A stretch of 64,000 nucleotides of DNA, taken from Bacillota bacterium (GTDB lineage Bacteria; Bacillota; Sulfobacillia; JAJYWN01; JAJZPE01). The position numbers were made by a program, and so were the translations under genes. The stretch is from the NCBI GenBank assembly GCA_021787335.1, contig JAJYMC010000062.1, forward strand, positions 154,181-218,180, written 5' to 3'. Of the stretch, positions 9,246 to 41,596 are shown piece after piece; positions within the stretch are counted from its first letter, which is position 1; the number at the start of each line of letters is the position of its first letter. Under the pieces are notes generated by a model, which saw nothing but the letters and a program-made list of their open reading frames with translations, was not told the origin of the DNA and searched no databases.

Positions 9246-9282
9246 AAGCCCTGGGCTTCGAAAGAGGCCCAGGGCTTCTTGT
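9246..9282 (+). terminator. Intrinsic terminator after pstSCAB
   Basis: AAGCCCTGGGC (9246) pairs with GCCCAGGGCTT (9267-9277) over a 10-base loop, followed by the T-rich CTTGT. Placed 35 bases after the pstB stop. Confidence 0.75.
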
Positions 9283-9463
9283 AACATTATCGGGTTTTCG
9301 TCCGACTAATCAGTATGGAACACAAGATGGGCCGGAACAAAGTCGTCGGAAGGGCGGTCTGACGAGTGATGTCCCCAAGGGAAGTGGAAGACTCCAGATG
9401 ACGAGGATTTCCGTTGCGGCACTGGGCCGAAGTCGCGTCCGCGAAGGCGGGGTGGAGTGGACG

Positions 9464-10117
9464 ATGGCGAGCACCGATGAAGACGCAAGACAGGCGGTAA
9501 GTCGGCTCTTCGATCTCTACGCCGACGACATCTATCGGTTCGTGCGCTTCAGCCTGGGGAACCCGGCCGAGGTCGAAGACATCGTTCAGGATGTGTTCCT
9601 GCAGGCCATGCGCTCATGGGGCGGCTTCCGCGGGGCTTCTTCCGAGAAGACCTGGCTCTGGTCGATCGCCCGCCACCGCATGGTGGACTGGATCCGCCGG
9701 CGCGGACGGGAGACGACAGGCATCGGGGAGGACATGGACCGCCTCGAAGGCGCACACTCCGACCCGGATGCCCTGATCGACCTCGAGCTGACCCTCCGCC
9801 GGTTGCCCATGGAACAAAGGCAGGTCTTGATCCTACGAATCGTCCAGGACAAGTCATCGGCCGAGGCGGCCGGCATCCTGGGCTGGTCGAACGTGAGGGT
9901 GCGGGTCACCCTGCACCGGGCGCTCAAGGCGCTGGAAGGTTTGCTGGCGCAAGAAGAATCATCACGGGAGGGAGAAGGTGGTAACCGTGGGGGTCAAGGG
10001 ATGGAAAAAGGTCTTCGCTCCTCTGTCGGAAACAAGGCTGCCCGACCAGGCCAGGGGAAGGATTCACCGGGCGCTGGAGCGGGAGGCCGAGTCTGGCGCA
10101 GCCAACCTGAGCAGTAG
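9464..10117 (+). CDS. ECF RNA polymerase sigma factor (cassette A)
   Basis: An ECF (extracytoplasmic function) sigma-70 family protein of ~217 residues. Region 2 has LFDLYADDIYRFVRF, EDIVQDVFLQAMRSW and TWLWSIARHRMVDWIRRR; region 4 has LPMEQRQVLILRIVQDKSSA and RVRVTLHRALKAL. ATG 9464 with GGTGGAG before it fits the family start; the frame is open back to 9398. The C-terminus is odd: after the usual end (LEGLLAQEES) the frame runs on ~45 residues, overlapping the next gene by 140 bases in another frame. The downstream membrane protein is probably its anti-sigma partner. Confidence 0.85.
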   Translation: MASTDEDARQAVSRLFDLYADDIYRFVRFSLGNPAEVEDIVQDVFLQAMRSWGGFRGASSEKTWLWSIARHRMVDWIRRRGRETTGIGEDMDRLEGAHSDPDALIDLELTLRRLPMEQRQVLILRIVQDKSSAEAAGILGWSNVRVRVTLHRALKALEGLLAQEESSREGEGGNRGGQGMEKGLRSSVGNKAARPGQGKDSPGAGAGGRVWRSQPEQ

Positions 10118-12491
10118 GCGCGGGGAGAGCGGGCGCGCCGCGGTCGGGACCCGGGCGCTCCGGCTGAGGATCGCGTTCTGGTGGGCGGGGGCGGCGGTCG
10201 TGGCCGCGGCCCTGATCGTCTTCATCGTCATCGGCGGCCTCGGGAAGAACGGACTTCCGATCCAGCCGGCCGCCCACGGCGCTGGTCGGTCCGTGGCCTC
10301 GTCCGAACCGATCGTGAACATCCAGATGGTCAACGGCGAGGTCGGCTGGGCGGCCGGCCAAGACGGTGCTGTCCTGCGGACCACCGATGGCGGCGCGACC
10401 TGGCTCGACGTGACCCCGGTCGACGTGCCCAAGGCCGAACCGGCGACCGCTCCGACGGCCCCGGTCTTCCTTCTGGACGACCCGCAGGCGGCTTGGCTCT
10501 TGGACACGCGCACGGACACCGTCTACCGCACGGTGGACGGTGGCCAGCACTGGCAGAAGGGGACGCCGCCCAAGCTGGACGTCGCCAATGACGGTGGCGT
10601 GTCCCTGTCCTTCGCCTCCGAGCAGCAGGGCTGGCTGATGGTGGCCAGCGGGACGCACAGCCAGGTGGCCCAGCTGTTCCAGACCAGCGACGGCGGTCTG
10701 ACGTGGCAGTCGGTCTCCAAGACCGGCAGTGGCGCCGGCGCTCTGCCCTACGGCGGCCAGATCGTCTTCAGCCGGGCGGTGGACGGCCTGGGGTGGCTGC
10801 GGCCGGACTTCCAGGCCAACTCGAACGGGATGCCGCCCCTCTACGTGACCCATGACGGCGGCAAGACCTGGGCTTCGCAAGACTTAGCCCTGCCGGTCGC
10901 CCTTCTGGACCTCTCCAGCAACCAAGTCCACGTCCAGTTGCCGCAGTTCGCCTCCTTCAATATCGCCAAGCATGGCCCGGCCACGAGCGGCCTGGAGGGC
11001 GTGCTACCGGTGACGTTCATGGGCGGCAAGTCCAACACCGGTCTGATTTATGTGACCAGTGACGGCGGGGTCAGCTGGACCTTGGCCGGAAGTATCGCCA
11101 ACATCGGGTCAAGCACGCAGCTGGTCACGGCGGTCGCGGACTCCCTGACCCTCTGGGCCTACGTGCCGGACGGGAACACCCTCTGGGCCACGCAGGACGG
11201 CGGTAAGGACTGGACCTCGTTCCACCCGCAGCCGAGTCTCTACGATTATCAACCGGCGGGTGGCCTGCCGCTGATGACCCAGATCGACTTCGTCTCCGGC
11301 GAACAGGGCTGGGCCTCGGTCAACGGTGCCATCCTTGGCACCATGGACGGCGGACGGACCTGGACGGGGCAAGGGCAGACGGCAACCGCCGGAGCGCTGA
11401 AGGTCGCCCCGGAGAATCTGACCATGTTCGATGCATCCCATGGCTACGGCTCGACGGCCGACCATCCCGTGATGGTCACCAACGACGGCGGCGTCACCTG
11501 GACTGACGTGACTCCTCAGGGCCTTGCCGCTGATAGCGGCGCCATTGTCAAGGGCTACTTCATCGACGCCAGGACCGGTTGGGTCTTCAGCCTGCGGGCC
11601 ACCCAGGACGTGACGGTCTACGGCACCACGGACGGCGGCCGGTCATGGTCCAAACTGGCCACGGCGCCGGTCAAGTACGGCGACGGCAACATGTTCATCG
11701 CCTTCTCCGACGCCCAGCACGGCTGGTTCGAGGACCGTTCGGCCGGCATGGGCCAGCTGCCCGGTGAACTCTTGGCGACCAAGGACGGCGGCCTGACGTG
11801 GACGCGGGTGGCTCAGAGCGGTAGCGTCAACGCCGCCCCGGGCACCCCGGGTGTCCTGCCCTCCGGTGTCCTGCCCTTCGGCGGGTCGCTCACGGCCCAA
11901 TCCGACGGGACGCTCTGGCTCACCGGGGCCCAACGGGCCACGGGGGGCGGTCCCGGTTACCTCTGGCTGTTCAAGAGCACGGACGGCGGGAAGTCGTGGT
12001 CCCAGATGAGCCTGCCGGTCCCGGCCGGACACGAGGAGGACGCAACGAACGTGTCGGACCCGACGTTCATCGGAAAGACCGGGCTGCTCAGCGTGATATA
12101 CACCGGCCAGCAGTCGGCTTCGGCCCTCTATCGGTCCAGCGACAGCGGCCAGACCTGGTCCCTGCAGGGGACGCTGAACATGGGCGGATGGCCGGTCTTC
12201 GCCAATCCACTGAATGGCTGGCAGACGGACGGTCAACACCTCTACCGTACCACTGACGGCGGGCGGACTTGGTCGACCGTGAACCCCGACGCCACGCTGC
12301 AGAAGGCGCTCGCGGGGCGGAACATCTCACAGATCGTCATCTCGGGCTCCCCCGGATCGACCGACGGCCAGCGTTGCCTGATCGTCCTGGAGAGCAAGGG
12401 AAGCTCCAGCGTCGGCCGGCTGCTGTTGGCGACCGACGACGGCGGCCAGACCTGGTCCGTGACGGCGGGGCAAGCCTCCGGGGGACAGTGA
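9978..12491 (+). CDS. Single-pass membrane protein with large YCF48/BNR-like beta-propeller ectodomain (cassette A, putative anti-sigma)
   Basis: An 837-residue protein starting at GTG 9978 behind GGGAGGGAGAAG, inside the sigma gene. A ~65-residue charged cytoplasmic N-terminus is followed by one transmembrane segment (~65-88, WWAGAAVVAAALIVFIVIGG). The rest should be outside the cell and contains fourteen motifs of the form T-x-DGG-x-x-W (for example RTTDGGATW, VTNDGGVTW, ATDDGGQTW). These resemble YCF48-like, BNR or sortilin propeller blades. The position after an ECF gene and the topology suggest a membrane anti-sigma or sensor. No zinc-binding anti-sigma motif is visible, so that role is inferred. 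The N-terminal half shares layout and the GGLGK...PIQP juncture with the protein of cassette B. Confidence 0.75.
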   Translation: MVTVGVKGWKKVFAPLSETRLPDQARGRIHRALEREAESGAANLSSRRGESGRAAVGTRALRLRIAFWWAGAAVVAAALIVFIVIGGLGKNGLPIQPAAHGAGRSVASSEPIVNIQMVNGEVGWAAGQDGAVLRTTDGGATWLDVTPVDVPKAEPATAPTAPVFLLDDPQAAWLLDTRTDTVYRTVDGGQHWQKGTPPKLDVANDGGVSLSFASEQQGWLMVASGTHSQVAQLFQTSDGGLTWQSVSKTGSGAGALPYGGQIVFSRAVDGLGWLRPDFQANSNGMPPLYVTHDGGKTWASQDLALPVALLDLSSNQVHVQLPQFASFNIAKHGPATSGLEGVLPVTFMGGKSNTGLIYVTSDGGVSWTLAGSIANIGSSTQLVTAVADSLTLWAYVPDGNTLWATQDGGKDWTSFHPQPSLYDYQPAGGLPLMTQIDFVSGEQGWASVNGAILGTMDGGRTWTGQGQTATAGALKVAPENLTMFDASHGYGSTADHPVMVTNDGGVTWTDVTPQGLAADSGAIVKGYFIDARTGWVFSLRATQDVTVYGTTDGGRSWSKLATAPVKYGDGNMFIAFSDAQHGWFEDRSAGMGQLPGELLATKDGGLTWTRVAQSGSVNAAPGTPGVLPSGVLPFGGSLTAQSDGTLWLTGAQRATGGGPGYLWLFKSTDGGKSWSQMSLPVPAGHEEDATNVSDPTFIGKTGLLSVIYTGQQSASALYRSSDSGQTWSLQGTLNMGGWPVFANPLNGWQTDGQHLYRTTDGGRTWSTVNPDATLQKALAGRNISQIVISGSPGSTDGQRCLIVLESKGSSSVGRLLLATDDGGQTWSVTAGQASGGQ

Positions 12492-12531
12492 TAAGGGCTT
12501 TCGAGATCCTGCGCATCGCCCAAACGGCACG

Positions 12532-12568
12532 GGCAATGGACGCACGCGAATCGCGGGCGTCCGTTGCC
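12532..12568 (+). terminator. Stem-loop between the two sigma/propeller cassettes
   Basis: GGCAATGGACGC (12532) pairs with GCGTCCGTTGCC (12557-12568), with one G-T pair, over a 13-base loop. The T content downstream is modest (TGTCCTGTTG). Probably a terminator for cassette A. Confidence 0.5.
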
Positions 12569-12659
12569 TGTCCTGTTGCGAAAAGACATGGGAGACTCGC
12601 CGCATGGACGCCGTAGTACGGGGTGACAGGGGGAGATAGAAACGGTCCAAGATGAGGAC

Positions 12660-13211
12660 TTGCACGCCGGCCTGTTGCGCCGGGACCAGGCCGCCCTCGC
12701 AGCGCTGATGGACAAGTACATGAACCCCGCCTACGCCCTCTGCGCCCGCATCCTGGAGGGGATCGGCACCGGTCAGGATGTGGAGGAATGCGTCAGCGAC
12801 GCCTTCTACGCGGCCTGGCGGAACGCCGGCGACTATCGCCCGGACCGGGCCCCCCTGCGCACCTGGCTGCTGATGCAGGCCAAGTACGTGGCCCTCGAGC
12901 GCCGTCGGCGGTTGACTCGCCGCCACGAATCCGCCGGCCTGGAGACCGACGAACGGCCGGCCCCCGACCCGCCTCCCGACGAATCACTGGCCACCGCGGA
13001 GGAGCGGCGGCGACTGCAGTCGGCCCTGGACAAGCTCCCCCCAGTGGACCGAGAGTTGGTCTACCGGCGCTACTTCCTGGACGAGAAGGTGGCCGACCTG
13101 GCGGTGGCCTTCGGCCTCACCCGGCAGGCGGCGGACAACCGGCTTTGGAGGGCGCGGCAGGCGTTGCGCTCCGCCCTTGGATTGGATAGCAGGGAGGGTG
13201 ACCCAGAGTGA
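12660..13211 (+). CDS. ECF RNA polymerase sigma factor (cassette B)
   Basis: An ECF sigma factor of 183 residues: region 2 has LLRRDQAALAALMDKYM, DVEECVSDAFYAAWRN and LRTWLLMQAKYVALERRRR; region 4 has LPPVDRELVYRRYFLDEKV and TRQAADNRLWRARQAL. The start is unclear. The frame opens after a TGA at 12624 and has no ATG or GTG before region 2. TTG 12660 cuts close to the first helix, and an ATA at 12636 would give the usual short acidic lead-in. Its stop overlaps the GTG of the next gene, so the pair is translationally coupled. Confidence 0.85.
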   Translation: MHAGLLRRDQAALAALMDKYMNPAYALCARILEGIGTGQDVEECVSDAFYAAWRNAGDYRPDRAPLRTWLLMQAKYVALERRRRLTRRHESAGLETDERPAPDPPPDESLATAEERRRLQSALDKLPPVDRELVYRRYFLDEKVADLAVAFGLTRQAADNRLWRARQALRSALGLDSREGDPE

Positions 13212-14695
13212 ACGACGTCGAGGAGATGGACAAGGTGCTCAAGGGGCTCGGCCTGCCCGATGACCTCCCGGAGGCGGCTCTGGCCGATGGGCCTCGACCT
13301 GACCGCGCGGCGGTCGGCCGGATCAAAGCCAGGACCATGCGGCTGGTCCGGACCGGGAGCACGGCAAAAGCCGGGGCGCCGGCGGTCGGTACCCGCGCGC
13401 CATGGTTCAAGAGCCCGCTGTGGTGGGCCGGGACGGCCGTCGTCGCCGCCGGGCTGGCGGCGCTGGTCATCCTCGGCGGCCTGGGCAAAGGGGTGAATCC
13501 CCCCATCCAGCCGACGAACCATGGCGACAAGGGGGGCAAGAACACGCCGCCCGATTCGCAGGCCCAGGGCGGGCAACTGGCGCTGTCGACCATCCGGATG
13601 GTGGACGCGCAGAACGGTTGGGCCATCCGATATGGTGAAACCTCCGGCAACCTTCTTCGGACCACCGACGGCGGCCGGACCTGGACCGACGTGACGCCGC
13701 CCGGCGGCAGCGGTGACCTTGGGTTCGGTGCCTTGCTTCAGCCCCTGGGCCCCGCGGGGCTGTGGGTCGCCACCGGTGGGACGGCGGGCAACGGCGTGGC
13801 CTCAAGCGTGACCATCTACCGCACGACCGACGGGGGTGCCAACTGGCAGAGCACGCGGGTGACTACTCGCTACACGAACGGGGCTCCCGTCCATCCCGTC
13901 TCGTGGTCCTTCACCCCCGGTGCCGGCGACCCAATGCCGATGACGGTCACCCGCGTCTGGCTGATGGTTTCCCCTGAGCATACCATGAACTCCGAGCCTG
14001 GAGAGCTTCTGGTGACGTCGGACAGTGGTCAGACCTGGAGCGAGGTTGCCCACGACGGTTCGAACCAGGGCGACCTGCCCTTCAACGGCACCATCACCTT
14101 CTTGAGCGACAAGGAAGGTTGGCTCGTGGGCAGTGAGACGACGACCACGGCAGATCACCTCTACCGCACCGCGGACGGCGGTCTGACCTGGAACCAGGTT
14201 GATCTACCCGTGCCGGCCTCGGTGCCGGGCGGCTCCGTGAACGACATTGGACTCCCCTCGGCCTATGGCAATAATCAGATGGCCCTGCCGGTCACCTTTG
14301 AACAGACCGACAAGGGGATTACCCTGGGCGGCGCCTACGTCTCCACTGATGGCGGCTCATCCTGGCGGTTCGCCGGCGGCCTGATTCCGGAACCGACGCT
14401 GCCGGCCTTCGTCAGCAAGCCCGACTCCAGCCCTTCGTTCGAGGGGTTCGCCGCCGGCTCGAGCGGAGTGTATGTGACGACTGACGGGGGTGCCAGCTGG
14501 AAGCTCACGGCTTCGGACACGTTGACCGAGGCGTTGAAGAGCGGTTCGCCGGTGGGCGCGCCGACCTTCGTCTCGCCCGACGTGGGGTGGCTGCTGCTCC
14601 AGCCGAGGACGGCGGGCGGCTCGGCTCAACTGCTCGAGACTCACGACGGGGGCCAGACCTGGTCGGCCGTGCCGGCCAAGCTCAGTACGAAGTGA
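13208..14695 (+). CDS. Single-pass membrane protein with seven-motif beta-propeller ectodomain (cassette B, putative anti-sigma)
   Basis: A 495-residue protein starting at GTG 13208, overlapping the sigma factor stop (GTGA). A ~70-residue charged N-terminus starting MNDVEEMDKVLKGLGLP is followed by a transmembrane segment at ~77-97 (WWAGTAVVAAGLAALVILGG). The ectodomain carries seven T-x-DGG-x-x-W motifs (RTTDGGRTW, RTTDGGANW, VTSDSGQTW, RTADGGLTW, VSTDGGSSW, VTTDGGASW, ETHDGGQTW), the number expected of one seven-bladed propeller. It is a shorter paralogue of the cassette A protein. An anti-sigma role for the cytoplasmic part is inferred from coupling to the sigma gene. Confidence 0.75.
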   Translation: MNDVEEMDKVLKGLGLPDDLPEAALADGPRPDRAAVGRIKARTMRLVRTGSTAKAGAPAVGTRAPWFKSPLWWAGTAVVAAGLAALVILGGLGKGVNPPIQPTNHGDKGGKNTPPDSQAQGGQLALSTIRMVDAQNGWAIRYGETSGNLLRTTDGGRTWTDVTPPGGSGDLGFGALLQPLGPAGLWVATGGTAGNGVASSVTIYRTTDGGANWQSTRVTTRYTNGAPVHPVSWSFTPGAGDPMPMTVTRVWLMVSPEHTMNSEPGELLVTSDSGQTWSEVAHDGSNQGDLPFNGTITFLSDKEGWLVGSETTTTADHLYRTADGGLTWNQVDLPVPASVPGGSVNDIGLPSAYGNNQMALPVTFEQTDKGITLGGAYVSTDGGSSWRFAGGLIPEPTLPAFVSKPDSSPSFEGFAAGSSGVYVTTDGGASWKLTASDTLTEALKSGSPVGAPTFVSPDVGWLLLQPRTAGGSAQLLETHDGGQTWSAVPAKLSTK

Positions 14696-14882: not shown

Positions 14883-15929
14883 TTGAACAACAGCGCGCCA
14901 TCATATGGGCTCGACCCGGGTGATTCACGCATCCGCGCAATCCTGGACGCCATTGAATCCTCGACCGTCGGGAAACGCTCCGTCGCCGAGCTTCTGGTCT
15001 GTGCCCTGATCGCCGGCGGGCATGTGCTGCTCGAGGACATCCCGGGCATCGGCAAGACCCTCGTGGTCAAGACTCTGGCCGCGGTCACCGGGCTCGGGTT
15101 CTCGCGCATCCAATGTACGCCGGACCTTCTTGCTTCGGACATCCTGGGGACAAGCGTCTTTCACCCACAGAAGGGCGAGTTCCAGTTCCACCCCGGCCCG
15201 GTCTTCTCCAACCTCATCCTCGTCGATGAGATAAACCGCGCCTCGCCCCGGTCCCAGTCCGCTCTCCTGGAAGCCATGGAGGAGCTGCAGGTCACCGTCG
15301 ACGGCCGGACCTATCGGCTGGAAGAGCCGTTCGTCGTCCTGGCGACGGAGAACCCCCTGGACGCCGAGGACGCCTTCCCGTTGCCGAGTTCTCAGGTGGA
15401 CCGCTTCCTCTTCCGCCTTTCGATCGGCTATCCGAGCCCCGAGGAAGAGGTGGAGATCCTCCGCCAGGCACCCCTGACCCCGAACGTCGCCGGAGCGGGC
15501 GAGAAGGGCCGGGAAGAGGGGCGTGGGGCGGTTATCGGGCGTGAGGCGGTTATCGGGCGTGAGGCGGTTATCGGGCGCGGGGCGGTCATCGACCGCCAGG
15601 GCCTGCTGGCCCTCCGGGCCGAGAGCGGCCGGGTCCACGTGTCCGACAGGCTCCTCCGATATCTGGCCGAGGTGCTGCGGATGACCCGGTCCGACCCGCG
15701 GGTGCTCATGGGCGCCAGCCCTCGGGCGGGCGCGCTGTGGATCAGGGCGGCCCAGGCCTGGGCCATGATGCAGGGCCGGGCCTACGTGGTCCCCGACGAC
15801 ATCCGCCGGCTGGCCATCCCCGTGCTGGAGCACCGCCTGCGCACGCGGACGGGCCACGAACCCAAGGAAGTAATCGAAGACGTGTTGGCGAGCGTCGCGG
15901 TGCCGACGGGCGACGGGCGGCGGCCGTGA
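14883..15929 (+). CDS. MoxR-family AAA+ ATPase
   Basis: A 348-residue AAA+ ATPase starting at TTG 14883. Walker A is in DIPGIGKTLVVKTLA, then ILGTSVFHPQKGEFQF, Walker B LILVDEINRASPRSQSALLE, sensor ATENPLDAEDAFPLP and a C-terminal lid. MoxR proteins are chaperone-like ATPases that usually act with DUF58 and transglutaminase partners, as encoded next. An insertion of four 18-base units (15528-15599) adds a repeated AVIGRE-type stretch between the AAA core and the lid. Confidence 0.9.
   Translation: MNNSAPSYGLDPGDSRIRAILDAIESSTVGKRSVAELLVCALIAGGHVLLEDIPGIGKTLVVKTLAAVTGLGFSRIQCTPDLLASDILGTSVFHPQKGEFQFHPGPVFSNLILVDEINRASPRSQSALLEAMEELQVTVDGRTYRLEEPFVVLATENPLDAEDAFPLPSSQVDRFLFRLSIGYPSPEEEVEILRQAPLTPNVAGAGEKGREEGRGAVIGREAVIGREAVIGRGAVIDRQGLLALRAESGRVHVSDRLLRYLAEVLRMTRSDPRVLMGASPRAGALWIRAAQAWAMMQGRAYVVPDDIRRLAIPVLEHRLRTRTGHEPKEVIEDVLASVAVPTGDGRRP
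15528..15599 (+). repeat. Four 18-base tandem units inside moxR
   Basis: Units begin at 15528, 15546, 15564 and 15582, with core GCGGTTATCGGGCGTGAG; the third and fourth differ by a few bases. All are in frame (six codons each), giving repeated A-V-I-G-R-E. Confidence 0.8.
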
Positions 15930-16933
15930 GCGGCGGTCGCTCCGGGCGGTCTGGCTTCCTAACGGGCGGACTGGTCGTCGCCTGGGTGGTGGGTGGCGGG
16001 GTCATCCTGGGCGGCCCGGCCGGGTTCGCCCTCGTCGGCCTGGGACTCGGTCTCGCCGTGGTGATGGCGATGACCCTCCTGGGGCCCCTGGAAGCGGTCG
16101 AGGTGGAGCGTGCGTTGCCGGATGAACCGGTGCGCGCGGGGGCTTCGGTGGATGTGTCGCTGACGGCCAGTTCCCGCGGGTCCTGGCCGTGGTTCGTGCT
16201 CCAGCTGGAGGACGTCGAGCCGGCCACGTGGGGCGCGCGGAACGAGGGCCGTTTCTTCCTCCTGCCGCACCGGACGGTGCGGATGACCTATCGTCTGCCT
16301 CGGGTCGCACGTGGCGTGCATCACTTCGGCCAGGTGAGGGTCTGCGCCACCGATCCCTTCGGTTTCGTCCGGCACCAGGTCCTGGTGGACATTCCCGACG
16401 AGCTGGAGGTGTGGCCGGTTCCCGTATCGGCCGAGCAGGCCCGGGAACTGCTCCCGGCGGTTCGTCGCCACGCCGCGGTCGGGGAATCGGGTGAGACGCG
16501 GGGTGTCCGACCCCACCATCCGGGCGACCCCTCGCGGCGAATCCACTGGCCGGCGACCGCGAAGGCCAGTCGGCTGATGGTTCGCGAGCTTGAGAAGGCC
16601 GCTTCGGCCCCGTTGCGCGTGGTCGTCGACCTGCCGTCCGACCCGGTCGGGCGGCGAGACCGCGTCGATCAGCTCGAACGGGCCATGTCCCAAGCGGCTG
16701 GCGTCGTTGACTGGGCGATGCGCCACCATCGCCCGGTGGCCCTCAGCGTCCTGCCGGGCAGTCTGCCTGCGGGTCGGGAAGGCAGTCTGCCTGCGGGCCG
16801 GGGTCAGGTCCACTACCGGCGGCTGATGCGTCTGTTGGCTGAATGCCGGCTCCCCGATTCGCCGGAGGGCTTGACCCCCTGCGAGCCGGCGGCTCGAGAA
16901 GCCTTGCTCGTTCGGGTGACAGGAGAGGGTTGA
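15926..16933 (+). CDS. DUF58 family membrane-associated protein
   Basis: Starts at GTG 15926, overlapping the moxR stop (GTGA), giving ~335 residues. Two N-terminal hydrophobic segments (~13-55) precede a soluble region. The DUF58 signature is GVRPHHPGDPSRRIHWPATA, followed by LMVRELEK and VVVDLPSD, the start of a von Willebrand A-like fold. DUF58 proteins are encoded with MoxR and transglutaminase-like genes in many bacteria; the biochemical role is unknown. It contains a 24-base in-frame duplication near the C-terminus. Confidence 0.87.
   Translation: MSGGRSGRSGFLTGGLVVAWVVGGGVILGGPAGFALVGLGLGLAVVMAMTLLGPLEAVEVERALPDEPVRAGASVDVSLTASSRGSWPWFVLQLEDVEPATWGARNEGRFFLLPHRTVRMTYRLPRVARGVHHFGQVRVCATDPFGFVRHQVLVDIPDELEVWPVPVSAEQARELLPAVRRHAAVGESGETRGVRPHHPGDPSRRIHWPATAKASRLMVRELEKAASAPLRVVVDLPSDPVGRRDRVDQLERAMSQAAGVVDWAMRHHRPVALSVLPGSLPAGREGSLPAGRGQVHYRRLMRLLAECRLPDSPEGLTPCEPAAREALLVRVTGEG
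16757..16804 (+). repeat. 24-base tandem duplication inside the DUF58 gene
   Basis: Two copies (16757-16780 and 16781-16804) starting GGCAGTCTGCCTGCGGG, differing at the end of the second. In frame, encoding G-S-L-P-A-G-R-E/G twice. Confidence 0.8.
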
Positions 16934-16938
16934 GGTCG

Positions 16939-18846
16939 ATGTGGGCCTTGAAGGCCAAGGCGTGGGACAAGCTTCTGCGCGGGTTGTGGCTGGTCATCCT
17001 GATGTGGCCCTTCGTCTTGCAGGCCAGGGCGGATCACATCGGGATAGCCTTGGCCTACGTTCTCCTGGCGCTCATCGCCTGGCCGGTCTTCATGACCGCG
17101 TCGACGCGTCCGCAGTTACTCTGGTTGGGGTTCATGGGGTCCGCGCTGCTGCTGTCGCTAACTCTGTCGGGAATCGGCGGGAGCACTCCGAGACAGGCCC
17201 TTGTCGCCTATGTCTCGGTGGGGCTGGTCGTGCTCGGCTCGATCCAGGCGGACCACCACCGTCCCGCGTGGCCCAAGCCGATCGGCGATCGCCTGATGGC
17301 GGCGGTCCTGGCCGGGTCGCTGGTCTTCGGACCGATGGCGGCGGCCGGGGCGGCCTCGACCTGGCTCGGCGTGAAGTTGCCCTGGTCCGTGTCATCGGGC
17401 GGCCTTACCTTCCCGGCAAAGGCTTCCTCCAATCCGGCCCAGGCTGAGAAAGCACTGGCGCGCGTGGGCATCGACCGGGCCGTGGAGGTCGCGGACACCC
17501 CGGTCATGACCATCAGCGGAGCGCCGGCGCCGGCTTACTGGACGGTGGCGGTCTACGACGACTTCGACGGCCGCGCCTGGACAGGCCAGGTGAGTGGGGG
17601 ACAGCCGGTGGCCGGCGGCGCGGTGAGCCTTCTTCCCCCTGAAGTCTCCGGTTTCACCACCCAGGCCTGGACGGTCACGGTCCGTCGCCTGACCGACGGT
17701 AACTTACCGCTGGTCTATGTGGGAACGCCCGAAGCCCTGACCGGGCCGGCGGCCGCCGCGTCGAGCCTCCGCGTGGAGCCGGGGCTGCGGGCGCTGTGGG
17801 CCCCGGGGACGGCATCCTACAGCCTGCGGCTTTCCGTGCCTGACGTCGGCCAGGATGCTCTCCGGAAGGCCGGCTTCTCCAGCCCGACGGCCGACTATAA
17901 GAAAGACCTGGCCGTGCCCATAAGTACCTCCCCGAAGGTCGGCGATCTGGCCCGATCGATCGCGGGTACGGCAAGCGGCCCCTGGCTGGCGGCGGAGAGC
18001 ATCGCCGATTACCTCATGACGCATGAGACCTACACCACGCGGTCCTCAGGGGCGACTGGCGACGCGGTGAACGCCTTCCTCCTTGATACCCACAGCGGGT
18101 CCTGCGATCAGTTCTCGACCAGTCTCGTCGTCATGTTGCGCGAGCTCGGGGTGCCGGCTCGCTGGGTCATGGGCTACCGGGTCGGGGAAGGCAATGCGCA
18201 ATCAGCGGACGCGCAATCAGCGGACGCGCAATCGGGGGACGCGCAATCAGGGGACTACCTGGTTCGCGCCAGCGACGCTCACTCCTGGGCCGAGGTCTAC
18301 GTCGCGCCGTACGGCTGGGTGCCAATCGACCCCACCCCCGGAGGGCAGGCGACCGGGTCCTCGGTCATCGCTGCCTCCGTACCCTTGACGGGCGGGGGGC
18401 AACCGGTGTCCCCCGACCCTTCATCGACTCAGACCACACCCGGAGGCGACAATGGCGCTCTCGCACCGACACGGGCGCCGCGAGCGGGTCAGGTCCTGTT
18501 TGCCCTGCCCATTCTGACGCTGGCACTGGCGGTGCTGACGGCGTTCGCCATCTGGTACCGACGGTCACGGGCGGCGCGGACCGCGGCTCGACCCCGCGTC
18601 GATGGCCTTTGGAAGGGACTTGCCCGGCTGGCCGGGCACCGTGGGAGATGGTCGGCGGTCGCTTGGATGACCCCGCGGGAGATCCTGAGTCTGGTGCCCG
18701 AGGAGTCCCGACCGGCGGTCATCCCAGCGGTCCGTCTGCTCGAGAGAGCGTGGTACGGCGACGAGACGCTCCCGCGAGGCGACATCGCTAGAGCCGAGAC
18801 CGCCCTCCGGGCTCAGGTGGGCCGGCCGTCTCCAAAGGTGGATTAG
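16939..18846 (+). CDS. TgpA-like transglutaminase domain membrane protein
   Basis: ~635 residues. ATG 16939 is preferred because AGGAGAGGG (16921) is correctly spaced to it; a TTG at 16930 overlapping the DUF58 stop is the alternative. Five or so N-terminal membrane spans are followed by an extracytoplasmic transglutaminase/protease-like domain. Its Cys is in DTHSGSCDQFSTSLVVMLRE, His in ASDAHSWAEVYV and Asp in GWVPIDPTPGG. A last membrane span (~ALPILTLALAVLTAFAIWY) precedes a cytoplasmic tail. Four 15-base units lie between the catalytic Cys and His. It acts with the MoxR and DUF58 proteins of the same operon, probably at the cell envelope. Confidence 0.87.
   Translation: MWALKAKAWDKLLRGLWLVILMWPFVLQARADHIGIALAYVLLALIAWPVFMTASTRPQLLWLGFMGSALLLSLTLSGIGGSTPRQALVAYVSVGLVVLGSIQADHHRPAWPKPIGDRLMAAVLAGSLVFGPMAAAGAASTWLGVKLPWSVSSGGLTFPAKASSNPAQAEKALARVGIDRAVEVADTPVMTISGAPAPAYWTVAVYDDFDGRAWTGQVSGGQPVAGGAVSLLPPEVSGFTTQAWTVTVRRLTDGNLPLVYVGTPEALTGPAAAASSLRVEPGLRALWAPGTASYSLRLSVPDVGQDALRKAGFSSPTADYKKDLAVPISTSPKVGDLARSIAGTASGPWLAAESIADYLMTHETYTTRSSGATGDAVNAFLLDTHSGSCDQFSTSLVVMLRELGVPARWVMGYRVGEGNAQSADAQSADAQSGDAQSGDYLVRASDAHSWAEVYVAPYGWVPIDPTPGGQATGSSVIAASVPLTGGGQPVSPDPSSTQTTPGGDNGALAPTRAPRAGQVLFALPILTLALAVLTAFAIWYRRSRAARTAARPRVDGLWKGLARLAGHRGRWSAVAWMTPREILSLVPEESRPAVIPAVRLLERAWYGDETLPRGDIARAETALRAQVGRPSPKVD
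18196..18255 (+). repeat. Four 15-base tandem units inside the transglutaminase gene
   Basis: Units of GCGCAATCAGCGGAC start at 18196, 18211, 18226 and 18241, with A/G changes in the last two. In frame, encoding A-Q-S-(A/G)-D four times in a loop between the catalytic Cys and His motifs. Confidence 0.85.
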
Positions 18847-32799: not shown

Positions 32800-34572
32800 G
32801 TGGATAGGAGCGAACCGGCAACCAGCAATGCTCAAGGGACTGTGGCGGAGGAGTACAGCGCCCTCCCCGACCTCGTGCCCGCCAGGATGATCAATGAATA
32901 CGCTTATTGCCCGCGCTTGGCATATATGGAATGGGTCCAAGGGGATTTCGCCGAGAGCGCCGACACCCTCGAAGGGCGGTTTCAGCACCGCCGCACCGAT
33001 GCCGAGGCGGGCGTAATTCCGCCCGCCGAAAGGGCCGCTTCCGGTGAGGGAGACACTCAGGGCGGGGGCGCGGCGGGGGGCACGGAAAGCGGTCAGCAGG
33101 CATCGGCCCGCTCGGTATTGCTATCGGGACAACAGGTCGGAATCATTGCTCGACTGGATATTGTCGAGGCCGCGGATGGCAAGGTCACGCCGGTGGACTA
33201 TAAGCACGGGCGAATGCCCGAGAACGAGGCACGAACCTGGGAACCCGACCGCGTGCAACTATGCGCCCAGGGTCTGGTGTTGCGGGAAAATGGCTATCGC
33301 TGCGATGAGGGCGTAGTCTACTACATTCAGTCCAAGACGAGGGTAACCATACTCTTCACGGAGGATTTGTGTCAGAGAACGCTGTCCATCGCTGACGAAA
33401 TGCGCCAAGCCTTTGCCAGCGGGGAGATTCCACCGCCACTCGAGGATAGCCCCAAATGCCTGGGCTGCTCCTTGGCGGGCATCTGCCTACCGGACGAGGT
33501 ACGGCTGCTGGCGCAGACCCAAGAGGCGAGCGCCAGGCAAAAGCTTGACGTGAGGCGGTTGGCTCCGGCCCGTGACGATCGGCTGCCGGTCTATGTGCAG
33601 GACCAGGGGGCGATGGTGGGCAAGAGCGGCGACCTACTCCAAATCAAGCAGGGGCGTCAGGTCATGGAAGAGGTTCGGCTATTGGATGTCGCCCAAGTAA
33701 ACGTTTTCGGCAACGTCCAGATAACGACGCAGGCGCTGCGGGAATTGGTCACGTGGGAGATACCGGTCTGCTATTTCACCTTCGGCGGATGGTTCGTGGC
33801 CATGACGCAGGGACTTGGGCACAAGAACGTCGAACTGCGTCTCGCCCAATACTTGGCGGCCCAGGACCAGGTCAGGAGTGTACGGGTCGCCGGGGCCATG
33901 GTCAACGGAAAGATCCGAAACGCCAGGACCATGCTCAGGAGGAACCATACGGAGGTACCGCCTTCGACTCTGAGGGAACTCGCGCGGTTGGCCCGGGAAG
34001 CCGAGAGGGTCCAGGAAACAGAGTCGTTGCTAGGGTTTGAAGGAGCCGCCGCCAGGGCCTATTTCGCGCAGTTTAGCGGCATGTTCAAGGACAAGGCGGT
34101 GAGTTTTGACTTCCGCGGCCGCAACCGCCGGCCGCCTCGAGATCCGGTCAACGCGGTCCTGTCTTTTGTCTATGCCTTACTCGTAAAGGATCTGACGGTC
34201 ACCGTACAGGCGGTTGGGTTTGACCCGTACCTCGGTTTCCTCCATCGCCCGCGCTACGGGAGGCCGGCCTTGGCTCTGGATTTGGCGGAGGAGTTTCGGC
34301 CGATCGTCGGGGATTCGGTGGCTCTTGCCATGCTTAACGGGGGCGAGCTGAGAGACGGCGACTTCCTGTCGAGGATGGGAGCGGTGGCTCTCGCCGAGAG
34401 AGGTCGCAAGCAGGTTATCAGTGCCTACGAGAGGCGTCTGGACACGCTGATCACTCATCCGGTATTTGGGTATACGATCAGCTATCGGAGGGTCTTCGAG
34501 GTCCAGGCCAGGCTGCTGGCCAGGCATCTGCTGGGAGAGATTCCCGAGTACAGGCCGTTTATGACGAGGTGA
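32800..34572 (+). CDS. cas4-cas1: Cas4-Cas1 fusion, spacer acquisition
   Basis: 590 residues from GTG 32800. Residues ~25-235 are Cas4: the first iron-sulfur cysteine in NEYAYCPRLAYMEW, H63, GIIARLDIVEA, TPVDYKHGRMP and the three-cysteine end CLGCSLAGICLP. A low-complexity Gly/Glu loop lies at ~70-105. Residues ~245-590 are Cas1: LPVYVQDQGAMVGKSGDLL, VCYFTFGGWF, the metal-binding His in DPYLGFLHRPRYGRP and ALDLAEEFRP. The fusion is characteristic of type I-G. In Geobacter the equivalent protein selects and trims PAM-bearing prespacers before integration. Confidence 0.94.
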   Translation: MDRSEPATSNAQGTVAEEYSALPDLVPARMINEYAYCPRLAYMEWVQGDFAESADTLEGRFQHRRTDAEAGVIPPAERAASGEGDTQGGGAAGGTESGQQASARSVLLSGQQVGIIARLDIVEAADGKVTPVDYKHGRMPENEARTWEPDRVQLCAQGLVLRENGYRCDEGVVYYIQSKTRVTILFTEDLCQRTLSIADEMRQAFASGEIPPPLEDSPKCLGCSLAGICLPDEVRLLAQTQEASARQKLDVRRLAPARDDRLPVYVQDQGAMVGKSGDLLQIKQGRQVMEEVRLLDVAQVNVFGNVQITTQALRELVTWEIPVCYFTFGGWFVAMTQGLGHKNVELRLAQYLAAQDQVRSVRVAGAMVNGKIRNARTMLRRNHTEVPPSTLRELARLAREAERVQETESLLGFEGAAARAYFAQFSGMFKDKAVSFDFRGRNRRPPRDPVNAVLSFVYALLVKDLTVTVQAVGFDPYLGFLHRPRYGRPALALDLAEEFRPIVGDSVALAMLNGGELRDGDFLSRMGAVALAERGRKQVISAYERRLDTLITHPVFGYTISYRRVFEVQARLLARHLLGEIPEYRPFMTR

Positions 34573-34876: not shown

Positions 34877-35079
34877 TCGGGATGAGTCGGACATCACTGA
34901 CTGTCGAGCGGGGAAGTGGTGATGGAATGCACGGGGGTGCTCGAAAGACGAAAGCCGAGGTCGACGAGGCAATCGGGCGCATCCGCCCTCGATTGGCGGG
35001 GTGCCCCTTCGGCAGCGGCCCAGGCCGCTCGAAATTGCCCCCGCAAAACCGCCCCGGGACAGGATTGGCGTACCGGGCG
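34877..35079 (+). promoter_or_regulatory. CRISPR leader
   Basis: 203 bases between cas2 and the first repeat. No convincing coding frame. It is less AT-rich than many leaders. The orientation is supported by perfect repeats on this side and degenerate repeats at the far end of the array. Confidence 0.7.
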
Positions 35080-38000
35080 GTCTCCACGGCCGAGAAGCCG
35101 TGGCTCAATTGAAGTTTGTGGATGTGCAGCACGGGGAACAACGGCCAACGGGTCTCCACGGCCGAGAAGCCGTGGCTCAATTGAAGTATCACCTCGCGCG
35201 CGGGAGTGTCGTTAAGCGGGAAAAGTCTCCACGGCCGAGAAGCCGTGGCTCAATTGAAGTCAGTAGAGAGGCCAAGCTGCCATAGTGCAGAGCCAGCGGT
35301 CTCCACGGCCGAGAAGCCGTGGCTCAATTGAAGTCAGTCAAAGACACTCAGGGAGCAGGCCTCCCTGAAGTCCGGTCTCCACGGCCGAGAAGCCGTGGCT
35401 CAATTGAAGTACAAACGCGCCTAGCAGGGTAACATGATAGTTGAGGGGGTCTCCACGGCCGAGAAGCCGTGGCTCAATTGAAGTGGGGTCATCGCCGTCT
35501 GCGCGTCGCCGTCAATGCCTACGCGTCTCCACGGCCGAGAAGCCGTGGCTCAATTGAAGTGAGAACCCCCGCGTGGTAGTCGGCGAGGAGGTCGCGTCTC
35601 CACGGCCGAGAAGCCGTGGCTCAATTGAAGTTAGGGCTCGCAGTTCCTCCTCGATGTCGGCCTCCTTGGTCTCCACGGCCGAGAAGCCGTGGCTCAATTG
35701 AAGTATCGACGCGTTCATCCGGGCCTTCGACCAGCGTTTGACGTCTCCACGGCCGAGAAGCCGTGGCTCAATTGAAGTTACCCCCACGTCCGGATGGTGC
35801 CGTCGGTCATCAGAGTCTCCACGGCCGAGAAGCCGTGGCTCAATTGAAGTCGGAAATGAAGTCCCAAACGCAGACGCCGGCTTTCAAAGTCTCCACGGCC
35901 GAGAAGCCGTGGCTCAATTGAAGTGCGCCGAACTGCTCATTCAGCATGGCGGTGACGTCGGCGTCTCCACGGCCGAGAAGCCGTGGCTCAATTGAAGTCT
36001 GACCGGCTTCAATCTGCCGGGCTTTGCGCCCGCCCTCGTCTCCACGGCCGAGAAGCCGTGGCTCAATTGAAGTTCGTTACGGTGTCGTTTCACGCGGGCA
36101 GAGACAGCCTGTCTCCACGGCCGAGAAGCCGTGGCTCAATTGAAGTGCGACTTGAGCGAGGTCCATCTCTCCCGCCTCCCCTCGTCTCCACGGCCGAGAA
36201 GCCGTGGCTCAATTGAAGTATGCCTACTCCCGCTTAGCGTTGGTCGCACTCACGGGTCTCCACGGCCGAGAAGCCGTGGCTCAATTGAAGTCCGACCTCG
36301 ATAAAGTCACCGTCCTGGTCGAGGGCAACCCGGGTCTCCACGGCCGAGAAGCCGTGGCTCAATTGAAGTTCGCCGTCCCCCTTGCAGAGCAGGCCCGAGC
36401 CGGACGTCTCCACGGCCGAGAAGCCGTGGCTCAATTGAAGTTGATATTCGAGGACCAGATTCAGTCCCCGGCCAGCCCGTCTCCACGGCCGAGAAGCCGT
36501 GGCTCAATTGAAGTCGGAAGGTCTGCCAGGCCTGCGGCCAGCAGAACCCGGTCTCCACGGCCGAGAAGCCGTGGCTCAATTGAAGTCGGGGTGGTGAACG
36601 CCGGATGCCGTCGCAGGTACTGGTCTCCACGGCCGAGAAGCCGTGGCTCAATTGAAGTAAGGTCCAGTTTACCCCCGACCGAAAGCGCCTGGAGCAGGTC
36701 TCCACGGCCGAGAAGCCGTGGCTCAATTGAAGTCGTCAAACTGTCGTGGAAGGACGGCAACGGGGGGACCAAGGTCTCCACGGCCGAGAAGCCGTGGCTC
36801 AATTGAAGTGAGGGCCAAATCTATCCTGACTTCGACGCGACGATCCAGTCTCCACGGCCGAGAAGCCGTGGCTCAATTGAAGTTCCGTTGTGGCCTGGGT
36901 GTACTGCGTGATCTTCCTCAGGGTCTCCACGGCCGAGAAGCCGTGGCTCAATTGAAGTATGAGCTGTTCGCATGGTGCTGGACGGCGCATGGGACGGTCT
37001 CCACGGCCGAGAAGCCGTGGCTCAATTGAAGTGGGCCGCAGGGCGAGGAAGTCATGGCGTTTATCGACGAGTCTCCACGGCCGAGAAGCCGTGGCTCAAT
37101 TGAAGTATCACCTTGCCTGCAGCCGCCAGGATACCGATTGCCAAGTCTCCACGGCCGAGAAGCCGTGGCTCAATTGAAGTTCACCCCAAACGGTCGAACC
37201 CGCTGCTACGTGACTTGTCTCCACGGCCGAGAAGCCGTGGCTCAATTGAAGTCAATCCGATAACCTCCTAATGGAAGAAGAGCGGTTCAGTCTCCACGGC
37301 CGAGAAGCCGTGGCTCAATTGAAGTCATCGATACAACGACTCCAACGGGCCGCATGGTATGGTCTCCACGGCCGAGAAGCCGTGGCTCAATTGAAGTCAG
37401 AGCTGAAAGCTCGCAGCCTGCCCCGATGCACCCTAGCCCACGTCTCCACGGCCGAGAAGCCGTGGCTCAATTGAAGTACCCCATATACATTGATCGCCGC
37501 GGCGACGTCCAGGGCGGTCTCCACGGCCGAGAAGCCGTGGCTCAATTGAAGTATTTCAAATGCGTGTTACCTCGAATTCTATGTCCCGTCTCCACGGCCG
37601 AGAAGCCGTGGCTCAATTGAAGTACTGGCGACCAGCGAGCACCGAGAACCGAGCGATTCAACGGTCTCCACGGCCGAGAAGCCGTGGCTCAATTGAAGTT
37701 GGGAGAGATAGTGGATGGGTCTGCCCAGGGCCTTTGCATACGTCTCCACGGCCGAGAAGCCGTGGCTCAATTGAAGTAAGCCTGACGCCGACGTCACCCT
37801 GGGCCTGGCCAACTCGGGGTCTCCACGGCCGAGAAGCCGTGGCTCAATTGAAGTAAGACCGCCGCCGATCATTATCTCCTGCTGGTATTGAGTCTCCACG
37901 GCCGAGAAGCCGTGGCTCAATTGAAGTTTCACCAAGGGATCCGCGGCGGCGGCGTTGGCTCAGATCGTCTCCACGGCCGAGAAGCCGTGGCTCAATTGAA

Positions 38001-41000
38001 GTGACGATAAGTTCGCCCGGTACATCGCTGAAAAGACCTGGTCTCCACGGACGAGAAGCCGTGGCTCAATTGAAGTGTGACAAACACCTTCACCGGCTGT
38101 TCTGCCGCCGCGCGGGTCTCCACGGCCGAGAAGCCGTGGCTCAATTGAAGTATTAGATAATTCGCCGACACCTTCGACGTCGGATTCGTGTCTCCACGGC
38201 CGAGAAGCCGTGGCTCAATTGAAGCAAGCTCGGCACCATCCCTGCGAGCTATGTCGGGGGTCGCCCTGTCTCCACGGCCGAGAAGCCGTGGCTCAATTGA
38301 AGCGATGCTCATGCCGCCGAGTACGACCAGCGGCCACCGGCCGAGGCCCGGCCGAGAAGCCGTGGCTCAATTGAAGCGATGCTCATGTGGTTTCGGATCA
38401 CGCGGTTCTTGTGGTCTCCACGGCCGAGAAGCCGTGGCTCAATTGAAGCTCGACAACGTCCAGGATGACCATGTGGCCGCCGTACCGTCTCCACGGCCGA
38501 GAAGCCGTGGCTCAATTGAAGCAGCGCATTCGCCGCCTGCGCCGCCACTAGCACTATGCAGTCTCCACGGCCGAGAAGCCGTGGCTCAATTGAAGCACCT
38601 ACTTCCGGCCCGAGTTCATCGTGGCGAACCGCGTCTCCACGGCCGAGAAGCCGTGGCTCAATTGAAGCTCCCAGGCCTCGACCGAGGCGTTCTCCCAGGC
38701 CTCGACGTCTCCACGGCCGAGAAGCCGTGGCTCAATTGAAGCTCGGACGCCAAGGAGGGCCCGCTCTCCAAGCTGACCCGTCTCCACGGCCGAGAAGCCG
38801 TGGCTCAATTGAAGCGTGGAGAAGTGGGCTGTCCCCATCATGGCGGCCGTCGTCGTCTCCGCGGCCGAGAAGCCGTGGCTCAATTGAAGCAAGACGGCGC
38901 TGGGCGCCACCGTGCCCGGGCCGGGACCGGTCTCCACGGCCGAGAAGCCGTGGCTCAATTGAAGCCTAAATTCCTGCTACCTTCCGTAAGCTGCAGGCGG
39001 GCGTCTCCACGGCCGAGAAGCCGTGGCTCAATTGAAGCGGCCTGTATCCTCCGCGCGAGGGGGACGGAGTTTTCCAGTCTCCACGGCCGAGAAGCCGTGG
39101 CTCAACTGAAGCACGCCCATTCATCTCACCTCTCTACGCGGCATCGAGTCTCCACGGCCGAGAAGCCGTGGCTCAATTGAAGCACCGGGCTGGTACGCTG
39201 GGTCGTCGTCCCGTCGCCGGTCTCCACGGCCGAGAAGCCGTGGCTCAATTGAAGCGTCGACATCCTGCTCGAACGCGTCAGGGAGATCGGAGGTCTCCAC
39301 GGCCGAGAAGCCGTGGCTCAATTGAAGCATCGAGGATTGTCACCTCCACGTGCGGGAGCCCGGTCAGGTCTCCACGGCCGAGAAGCCGTGGCTCAATTGA
39401 AGCTAAAGCCCATCTTCGAGCGTCATATCACGTCACCAGGTCTCCACGGCCGAGAAGCCGTGGCTCAATTGAAGCATCGAGTAGCTCCAGGTGGAGTCGA
39501 CCGAGGCCTTGGCCGGGTCTCCACGGCCGAGAAGCCGTGGCTCAATTGAAGCGTCCGCGCGGCGTTCTATCTGATCATCATCGTGGCGTCTCCACGGCCG
39601 AGAAGCCGTGGCTCAATTGAAGCGTGCTTTCGGCCTCGAACCTCGACGCGCGCATGGCCGTCTCCACGGCCGAGAAGCCGTGGCTCAATTGAAGCAGGCC
39701 CAGGTCGACCTCCTCCGTGCCGGCCAGTTTGCCGAGTCTCCATGGCCGAGAAGCCGTGGCTCAATTGAAGCAGCATGAAGATCAACAGGGTATCGCTGGT
39801 CTTGGCCCGGTCTCCACGGCCGAGAAGCCGTGGCTCAATTGAAGCAGCATGAAGATCAACAGGGTATCGCTGGTCTTGGCCCGGTCTCCACGGCCGAGAA
39901 GCCGTGGCTCAATTGAAGCCCGTTCTTCACGATGGCGATGGGAATGGGCGTCATGGGGGTCTCCACGGCCGAGAAGCCGTGGCTCAATTGAAGCGACCAC
40001 GACGTAGACGAGTTCGACCGGCAGCGGGCGGGCGTCTCCACGGCCGAGAAGCCGTGGCTCAATTGAAGCGGCAGGACGAGTTCCTGCCAGAAGCGGCGTT
40101 CGGCCTGTCTCCACGGCCGAGAAGCCGTGGCTCAATTGAAGCCAAAACCCCGACACGCCACCGTCCACCATCCGCTCCAGTCTCCACGGCCGAGAAGCCG
40201 TGGCTCAATTGAAGCGCCAACCTGGCCACCACGCTAGATCTGGAGGGGTTCCTCGTCTCCACGGCCGAGAAGCCGTGGCTCAATTGAAGCGGGAAGAAGT
40301 ACACTGTTACGCTTCCCAGCGGGCTGGAGTCTCCACGGCCGAGAAGCCGTGGCTCAATTGAAGCGACAGCGTGTAGATAGCGGCGGCCCGTTGCATCTGG
40401 GCGTCTCCACGGCCGAGAAGCCGTGGCTCAATTGAAGCGAGTACGGACAGGTGACACGGAGGACGCCGCTGGCCGATGTCTCCACGGCCGAGAAGCCGTG
40501 GCTCAATTGAAGCAAAGCCTCCATGTTCCTCTCCGGCGACCTCCACTCAGGTCTCCACGGCCGAGAAGCCGTGGCTCAATTGAAGCCATGTTCTGCGGAT
40601 TGACTCTTACGCAAGTATCCTTCATGTCTCCACGGCCGAGAAGCCGTGGCTCAATTGAAGCAAACCAAGGGGGACCACCAATGCCCATGATCTGCTCCCG
40701 TCTCCACGGCCGAGAAGCCGTGGCTCAATTGAAGCGAGCGTGGGGGGACCACGGTCTGGATCGACGAGCTCATGTCTCCACGGCCGAGAAGCCGTGGCTC
40801 AATTGAAGCCGCAACATGGGCCGCGAACGCGACGGGCCTGCCGACAGTCTCCACGGCCGAGAAGCCGTGGCTCAATTGAAGCTCGCAGCCGTCGACCGCC
40901 GAGGGCGTGACCGTGGCCGTCTCCACGGCCGAGAAACCGTGGCTCAATTGAAGCGTAGCACTACGACGCGATGGTGCTCGACGACATTGTCGTCTCCACG

Positions 41001-41246
41001 GCCGAGAAACCGTGGCTCAATTGAAGCCGCTCCGTCCGCGTGTATAGGTCGAGCCACTGGTCGCCGTCTCCACGGCCGAGAAGCCGTGGCTCAATTGAAG
41101 CCAGCGAGCCTTCGGCGAGGAGGGCATCCGCGCGGTCATCTCCACGGCAGAGAAGCCGTGGCTCCATTGAAGCAATCCGCGCGCACGTGCGGGGCGCGGC
41201 CTCACCACGAGTTTCCACGGAGAAGAACCCGTGGCTCAATTGAAGC
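35080..41246 (+). CRISPR. CRISPR array, 84 repeats / 83 spacers, type I-G
   Basis: I counted 84 copies of a 36-base repeat beginning GTCTCCACGGCC and ending CTCAATTGAAG plus T or C. CCACGGC and GCCGTGG pair to form a 7-base-pair hairpin around CGAGAA. Spacers are 35-44 bases. The last repeat base is T in repeats 1-42 (through 38116) and C in repeats 43-84 (from 38190). Variants: 38041 (one change in the loop side), 38342 (first ~9 bases diverged), 38855, 39077 (CTCAACTG), 39736 (CATGG), 40919 and 40992 (GAGAAACC), 41138 and 41211 (strongly decayed). One spacer-repeat unit is duplicated exactly (spacers at 39772 and 39846). Open frames through the array are only translated repeats. Confidence 0.98.
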
Positions 41247-41596
41247 TCTGAGCCTTGCCTCGTCGAAAGGACAGGCGGTCTATTGAGCAATCGTTCCCAT
41301 GCCCGCGGGGTGAGGGCCGTTTCATGGACGAGCGGCCAGCCATGCTTTAGTGTCTTCGTAGTCAAGGAGATGAGGCGAAGCCAAGACCGGTGGAAAGGCG
41401 CGGTCTAGTCATCCGTAAGGTACATGGTGGTGATTGGTCAAGGCCGTTGACTCGCCACTCGGAGCCGGGGTCCCGGTCAGGACCTGATTAGTCCACTACC
41501 TGAGTGACCTCGCGTCGATGTGTGGTCTGTCAAGCCGGCCGCATTGCGGGTTTGCTCTCAGAGCGGTAGAAGGAGAACGTCCGAGAAGGGCAAGAA
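41247..41596. other. Region after the CRISPR array
   Basis: About 350 bases with no supported gene. A minus-strand frame from 41365 runs into the array and starts TKTLKHGWPLVHETALTPR, a plausible coding fragment, but it has no recognised family and then reads through repeats. It may be a remnant cut by the trailer end. Confidence 0.35.

Follow-up and report, generated by a model that had tools for sequence, protein, structure and literature searches.

Two adjacent ECF sigma factor genes, each followed by a gene for a predicted membrane-anchored Asp-box propeller anti-sigma factor, in a Bacillota genome

ECF sigma factors paired with anti-sigma factors are a major bacterial signalling route, and most of the outside halves of the anti-sigma factors have no known ligand. 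The combination of an ECF sigma factor and a membrane-anchored anti-sigma factor with a propeller-type outside part already has a tested precedent, Tt-RpoE1/Tt-TolB of Thermoanaerobacter tengcongensis (PMC3397946). There the ECF gene is followed at once by the gene of a single-pass partner. Tt-TolB has a 38 aa cytoplasmic N-terminus, a transmembrane segment at residues 39-61 and a large TolB-like outside part, and the N-terminal part mediates its binding and inhibition of Tt-RpoE1. The Tt-RpoE1 promoter is autoregulated and shows an AC...CG layout, tGTTAC-N16-CGTC (PMC3397946).

The 64,000-nucleotide stretch analysed here (termed the window) is from a draft genome of 3.5 Mb in 65 contigs and displays two adjacent cassettes. 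Each consists of an ECF gene (ECF1, ECF2) and a gene for a propeller protein (PROP1, PROP2). The resemblance to Tt-RpoE1/Tt-TolB, i.e. an ECF sigma factor with a membrane-anchored, propeller-type partner that has a short cytoplasmic tail, is one of layout, the Tt-TolB fold being taken from its TolB annotation. The Tt outside domain is TolB-like and present in a single copy, whereas those of the window are of the Asp-box/YCF48 type, and the window promoter is TGTAAC-N17-CGACTA. No TolB family match was found by Pfam in PROP1 or PROP2; Sortilin, YCF48 and BNR families match instead.

Three other described groups show partial similarities. Ycf48/HCF136 (PSII_BNR, PF14870) is also a seven-bladed Asp-box propeller (phmmer E-value = 1e-5, PSII_BNR above cut-off), but it is without a cytoplasmic sigma-linked tail, and the window proteins, at 82 and 50 bits, score far below the Ycf48 equivalog cut-off of 326. 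GH74 xyloglucanases share the fold, with seven-bladed propellers in tandem, and are the best structural match of both models; they are, however, secreted enzymes with 13%-18% sequence identity to the window proteins, and they lack both a membrane anchor and a partner sigma factor. Class I (ZAS) anti-sigma factors of the RseA/RsiW type are single-pass membrane proteins encoded after their own ECF gene, but the window tails differ in lacking the H-x3-C-x2-C motif and any class I domain match.

The original prediction called this a little-described signalling module, which is a fair description: in the literature searched, which covered few subscription papers, the TolB-like counterpart was found (PMC3397946), and no description of an Asp-box/YCF48 version of the anti-sigma factor, of its doubling, of its combination with several ECF lineages or of a link to MoxR-DUF58-transglutaminase genes. 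The window candidates offer an outside propeller with well-studied binding relatives, a tail defined by its reuse on other sensors, a readable promoter and a named candidate target operon. Each cassette very probably encodes an ECF sigma factor and the membrane-anchored anti-sigma factor cognate to it, the latter having one or more extracytoplasmic Asp-box propellers as sensors.

Architecture of the two cassettes

The cassettes are flanked by pstB (phosphate transport), which ends at 9211, and a MoxR gene that starts at 14883 (Table 1). The gene coordinates and the pattern of an ECF gene with an overlapping gene for a single-pass partner, as originally proposed, are correct by open reading frames, Pfam domains and overlaps. 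The Pfam domains of both sigma factors and both partners all exceed the curated cut-offs. ECF1 and ECF2 have Sigma70_r2 and r4_2 only, without sigma3, and TIGR02937 is above its own cut-off. The PROP1 start was chosen from homology and the ribosome binding site.

Table 1. Features of the two cassettes and the adjacent operon (window positions).
Feature	Position	Strand	Evidence
ECF-type promoter TGTAAC-N17-CGACTA, 5' of cassette 1	9280-9308	+	Sole match in window (expected 0.01); sole exact match in genome
ECF1 sigma factor (sigma2 + sigma4)	9464-10117	+	Pfam Sigma70_r2 E 2e-17, r4_2 E 4e-12; PDB matches are ECF sigmas
PROP1 gene	9987-12491	+	Sortilin-Vps10, PSII_BNR, BNR (Pfam)
PROP1 cytoplasmic tail, proposed anti-sigma domain	9987-10178	+	W-x3-F-x2-L-x5-P motif; tail family common to different ectodomains, each directly 3' of an ECF gene of one clade
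PROP1 transmembrane helix	10179-10238	+	Hydropathy and predicted helix
PROP1 propeller I, seven-bladed	10296-11360	+	7 Asp boxes; model residues 104-458 align with YCF48, Z 17-18
PROP1 propeller II, seven-bladed	11361-12491	+	7 Asp boxes; GH74 double propellers align over 104-822
Conserved block TGGGAGA...GCCGTAGTACGGGGTGA, candidate promoter/leader of ECF2	12588-12627	+	Near-identical in G003; two genomes only
ECF2 sigma factor	12660-13211	+	Pfam Sigma70_r2 E 2e-10, r4_2 E 4e-10; 80% identity to G003 ECFb
PROP2 gene	13208-14695	+	Sortilin-Vps10, PSII_BNR, BNR (Pfam)
PROP2 cytoplasmic tail, proposed anti-sigma domain, other type than that of PROP1	13208-13417	+	Common to G003b only; two weakly predicted helices
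PROP2 transmembrane helix	13418-13474	+	Predicted helix 71-89
PROP2 single seven-bladed propeller	13565-14692	+	Model residues 120-494
MoxR AAA ATPase, first operon gene, possible target	14883-15929	+	Pfam AAA_3 E 7e-57; same order in G003
DUF58 protein	15737-16933	+	Pfam DUF58 E 9e-9; syntenic; open reading frame overlaps MoxR at its N-terminus, real start probably further 3'
Transglutaminase-like membrane protein with DUF4129	16843-18846	+	Pfam Transglut_core E 1e-23; syntenic

As predicted from sequence and models, both partners have a cytoplasmic N-terminal tail (~64 aa in PROP1, ~70 aa in PROP2), then one transmembrane helix and an extracytoplasmic C-terminal domain. The two share a membrane-proximal stretch, IGGLGKNGLPIQP in PROP1 and LGGLGKGVNPPIQP in PROP2; the shared sequence first reported as GGLGK...PIQP is thus real.

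The gene overlap is 131 nt in ECF1/PROP1 versus 4 nt in ECF2/PROP2. The long overlap results from the loss of an ancestral stop codon. In the related genome G003 the ECF gene ends with TAA; in window positions 9987-10117 this codon is CAA in ECF1, a substitution that is synonymous when read in the frame of PROP1 (GTT to GTC). The loss adds ~43 codons to the end of ECF1, out of frame with PROP1, and codon-position GC in the overlap tracks the PROP1 frame.

A strict count of the DGGxxW motif gives 13 in PROP1 and 6 in PROP2 (shuffled proteins have mean Asp-box counts of 0.07 and 0.03). The 14 and 7 motifs claimed at the outset are reached when one DSG variant is admitted in each protein. Structure prediction, proposed as a check of the fold, gives one propeller in PROP2 and two in PROP1, and together with the Asp boxes (7+7 versus 7) the models support two seven-bladed propellers against one. 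The PROP2 model has a mean pLDDT of 71 and a pTM of 0.67, with pLDDT mostly 70-93 over the propeller. Structurally it is closest to GH74 enzymes, namely to their N-terminal halves, which are seven-bladed (Z 21.6, rmsd 3.6, 305 residues); Ycf48 gives Z 18.5 at 20% identity. For PROP1 the model is weaker and of low confidence (mean pLDDT 61, pTM 0.44). GH74 double propellers align along both of its propellers, Ycf48 only along propeller I; because the rmsd of the GH74 alignment is large, the way the model positions the two propellers against each other is not relied on. The tails of both models are predicted poorly.

Propellers I and II of PROP1 display 30% identity to each other but 69% (I) and 64% (II) to their counterparts in G003, so that the doubling predates the split from G003. 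The G003 counterpart of PROP2 has two propellers and PROP2 shows 53% identity to the second of them; thus one propeller was either lost in PROP2 or gained in G003.

Conserved pairing, tails and sigma lineages

Asp-box propeller open reading frames of other genomes within the class and the phylum were gathered by similarity to the propeller or to the tail, never by adjacency to a sigma gene. The set has 88 distinct propeller open reading frames for which 500 nt or more of the upstream sequence is present; a long tail was defined as one before a helix without a lipobox. An ECF gene is directly upstream of all 18 long-tail open reading frames and of none of the 70 others, which are 48 lipoproteins and 22 other secreted forms or unclear ends (Fisher p = 4e-19, a value that overstates the association because related open reading frames are not fully independent). 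The split is complete and spans six families of the class (f1, f2, f18, f38, f39, f47). In all 18 cases the partner gene is directly downstream of the ECF gene and co-oriented with it, an arrangement kept across genomes, and stop and start codons overlap in most pairs. Larger flanks gave three more double-propeller pairs and fuller versions of others. The search for other ECF-YCF48 pairs suggested with the original prediction thus finds the pairing conserved, and this conservation and the seven-bladed models support the interpretation of the cassettes as sensor modules. Among matches from 398 genomes sampled across the phylum, a sample that is not exhaustive, there are no long-tail propeller proteins from outside this class; the matches are lipoproteins or other secreted forms.

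The same genome also has three free Asp-box propeller lipoproteins (L007 4456-5547, L008 5435-8241), one of them ~24 kb upstream of cassette 1. These were considered as further cassettes and rejected: they are lipoproteins, and none of them comes with an ECF gene.

A profile of the PROP1-type tail, whose alignment displays the pattern M-x4-W-x3-[YF]-x2-L-x5-P, also matched proteins that have no propeller: G096 with TPR repeats, and G148, G130, G134 and others with no known domain. Each of these directly follows an ECF gene. The ECF sigma factors that precede PROP1-type tails form one clade regardless of the ectodomain (14 sequences, support 99/96). ECF2 and its G003 counterpart are a separate lineage (100/100), as is a third group, G051b and G113 (100/100). 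Propellers occur on other tail types too, paired with other ECF lineages. One tail-sigma module with varied sensors, and one sensor on varied modules, fits a sigma-binding tail with an exchangeable sensor. The sequences thus predict that the tail is a swappable sigma-binding module joined to a sensor. In family f47 (L030, L105, L106, L107, L108), propeller proteins with weaker Asp boxes, of which ~3 are canonical, carry two more types of tail, and each follows an ECF gene of its own.

The lack of a classical zinc anti-sigma motif noted at the start holds more widely: H-x3-C-x2-C is in neither the PROP1 nor the PROP2 tail, nor in any of the 18 tails checked. No Pfam anti-sigma domain, including that of class I, was recognised in the tails. 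Three tails of the ECF1 type match the NCBIfam "anti-sigma factor" NF052375 weakly (E-value = 0.001-0.004, well below cut-off), and identity of the tail with a known Pfam or NCBIfam anti-sigma domain was rejected, these being the only matches.

The propeller protein could instead be the target of the sigma factor, co-transcribed with it as a Ycf48-like envelope assembly or binding factor and having no regulatory role. Ycf48 is an assembly factor, and most relatives of the propeller (48 lipoproteins and 22 others) have no sigma gene. However, the long tail is seen only in versions that follow an ECF gene, and it is kept where the outside domain is replaced, so that a target role is quite improbable. 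Gene pairing alone cannot separate an inhibitor from an activator, e.g. a membrane protein that recruits or stabilises the sigma factor at the membrane, but membrane-anchored partners directly downstream of ECF genes are mostly anti-sigma factors (PMC8103513) and the nearest tested case, Tt-TolB, inhibits (PMC3397946); activation has very little probability here.

A further arrangement would join both cassettes in one circuit, in which one sigma factor controls both and the two propeller proteins compete for it or sense two ligands. In its favour, the cassettes are neighbours in both the window and G003, the membrane-proximal sequence is common to them, and a search revealed no strong terminator in between. 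Against this, ECF1 and ECF2 are of distinct lineages and the two tail types differ, which points to each sigma factor having its own cognate partner and leaves the single circuit unlikely, although the cassettes may be co-transcribed.

With PROP1 and PROP2 as cognate anti-sigma factors, the cytoplasmic tail would bind the sigma factor and sequester it at the membrane, where the single helix would anchor the protein. The outside Asp-box propeller or propellers would sense a ligand, most likely an envelope peptide, protein or glycan, as bound by Ycf48, sortilin and GH74 propellers. On sensing, the anti-sigma factor may be inactivated by regulated intramembrane proteolysis or by a conformational change. 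M50-family proteases are present in the host genome but also in all 14 control genomes, and thus are no specific evidence for proteolytic release. The freed ECF1 would then transcribe its own operon from TGTAAC-N17-CGACTA, and the freed sigma factor may perhaps also transcribe the neighbouring MoxR-DUF58-transglutaminase operon.

Promoter elements

A shorter form of the cassette 1 promoter with the same spacing, GTAAC-N17-CGACTA, is found 5' of 9 of the 13 ECF genes of the ECF1 clade and in 0 of 2000 shuffles. As the pattern was picked out visually from these very sequences, the shuffle test is only descriptive. Genome searches serve as an additional check: across nine genomes that have a pair of this kind, the N17 form always precedes the ECF gene, and only one of the nine has another N17 site, a single one. 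Since the promoter is conserved and its exact element occurs once in the genome, before ECF1, autoregulation of cassette 1 by ECF1 is a well-supported prediction from sequence. No ECF1 regulon beyond its own operon was seen in a genome search allowing one mismatch (4 sites versus 5 control sites), and the other near-match sites were rejected as ECF1 targets, their neighbourhoods giving no convincing target. A first, loose promoter pattern (AAC...CGT) gave nothing, and no housekeeping promoter or terminator patterns above chance were found within the cassettes.

Cassette 1 has the conserved TGTAAC-N17-CGACTA element; cassette 2 has only the block kept with G003. The third ECF group displays an element of its own, GCAACC-N16-CGTTCT, in 6/6 intergenic regions.

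The MoxR-DUF58-transglutaminase operon

Gene clusters with MoxR, DUF58 and transglutaminase are widespread and poorly understood, and a signalling pair linked to them offers a way to learn when they are active. The three genes are directly 3' of cassette 2 in the window and in G003, and a MoxR gene is 3' of a cassette in G117. The window MoxR matches AAA_3 far better than bpMoxR, the type found in MoxR-vWA-beta-propeller ternary systems, which is also above cut-off. In five other genomes (G051, G113, G112, G111, G071) an ECF/double-propeller pair of another kind is oriented divergently to a MoxR-DUF58 operon; the transglutaminase gene is visible in four of these loci and the fifth ends at a contig end. 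This distinct pair (L173, L174, L175, L177, L180) carries the GCAACC-N16-CGTTCT element; no ECF element facing MoxR was identified in the divergent regions.

The presence of two arrangements and two ECF lineages at the same operon suggests a functional link between the cassettes and the MoxR-DUF58-transglutaminase genes, and perhaps the sigma factor controls them. A wider reading, which is put forward tentatively and with less than even confidence, is that Asp-box propeller anti-sigma factors are a class of sensors that has been combined with several ECF lineages. In two or more unrelated ECF lineages they would have come to adjoin and control a MoxR-DUF58-transglutaminase envelope machine, and the propeller would read out a substrate or product of that machine.

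In G003 a secreted double-propeller protein (L045 2930-5335, G003:C56) with 14 boxes, a signal peptide and no ECF gene is encoded just 3' of the transglutaminase gene; the window has no counterpart there.

Elsewhere, window positions 35000-41300 display a long CRISPR-like array in which the repeat reads through as ...SPRPRSRGSIEA.../...LHGREAVAQLK..., and an open reading frame upstream of it (32800-34572) resembles a Cas4-Cas1 fusion.
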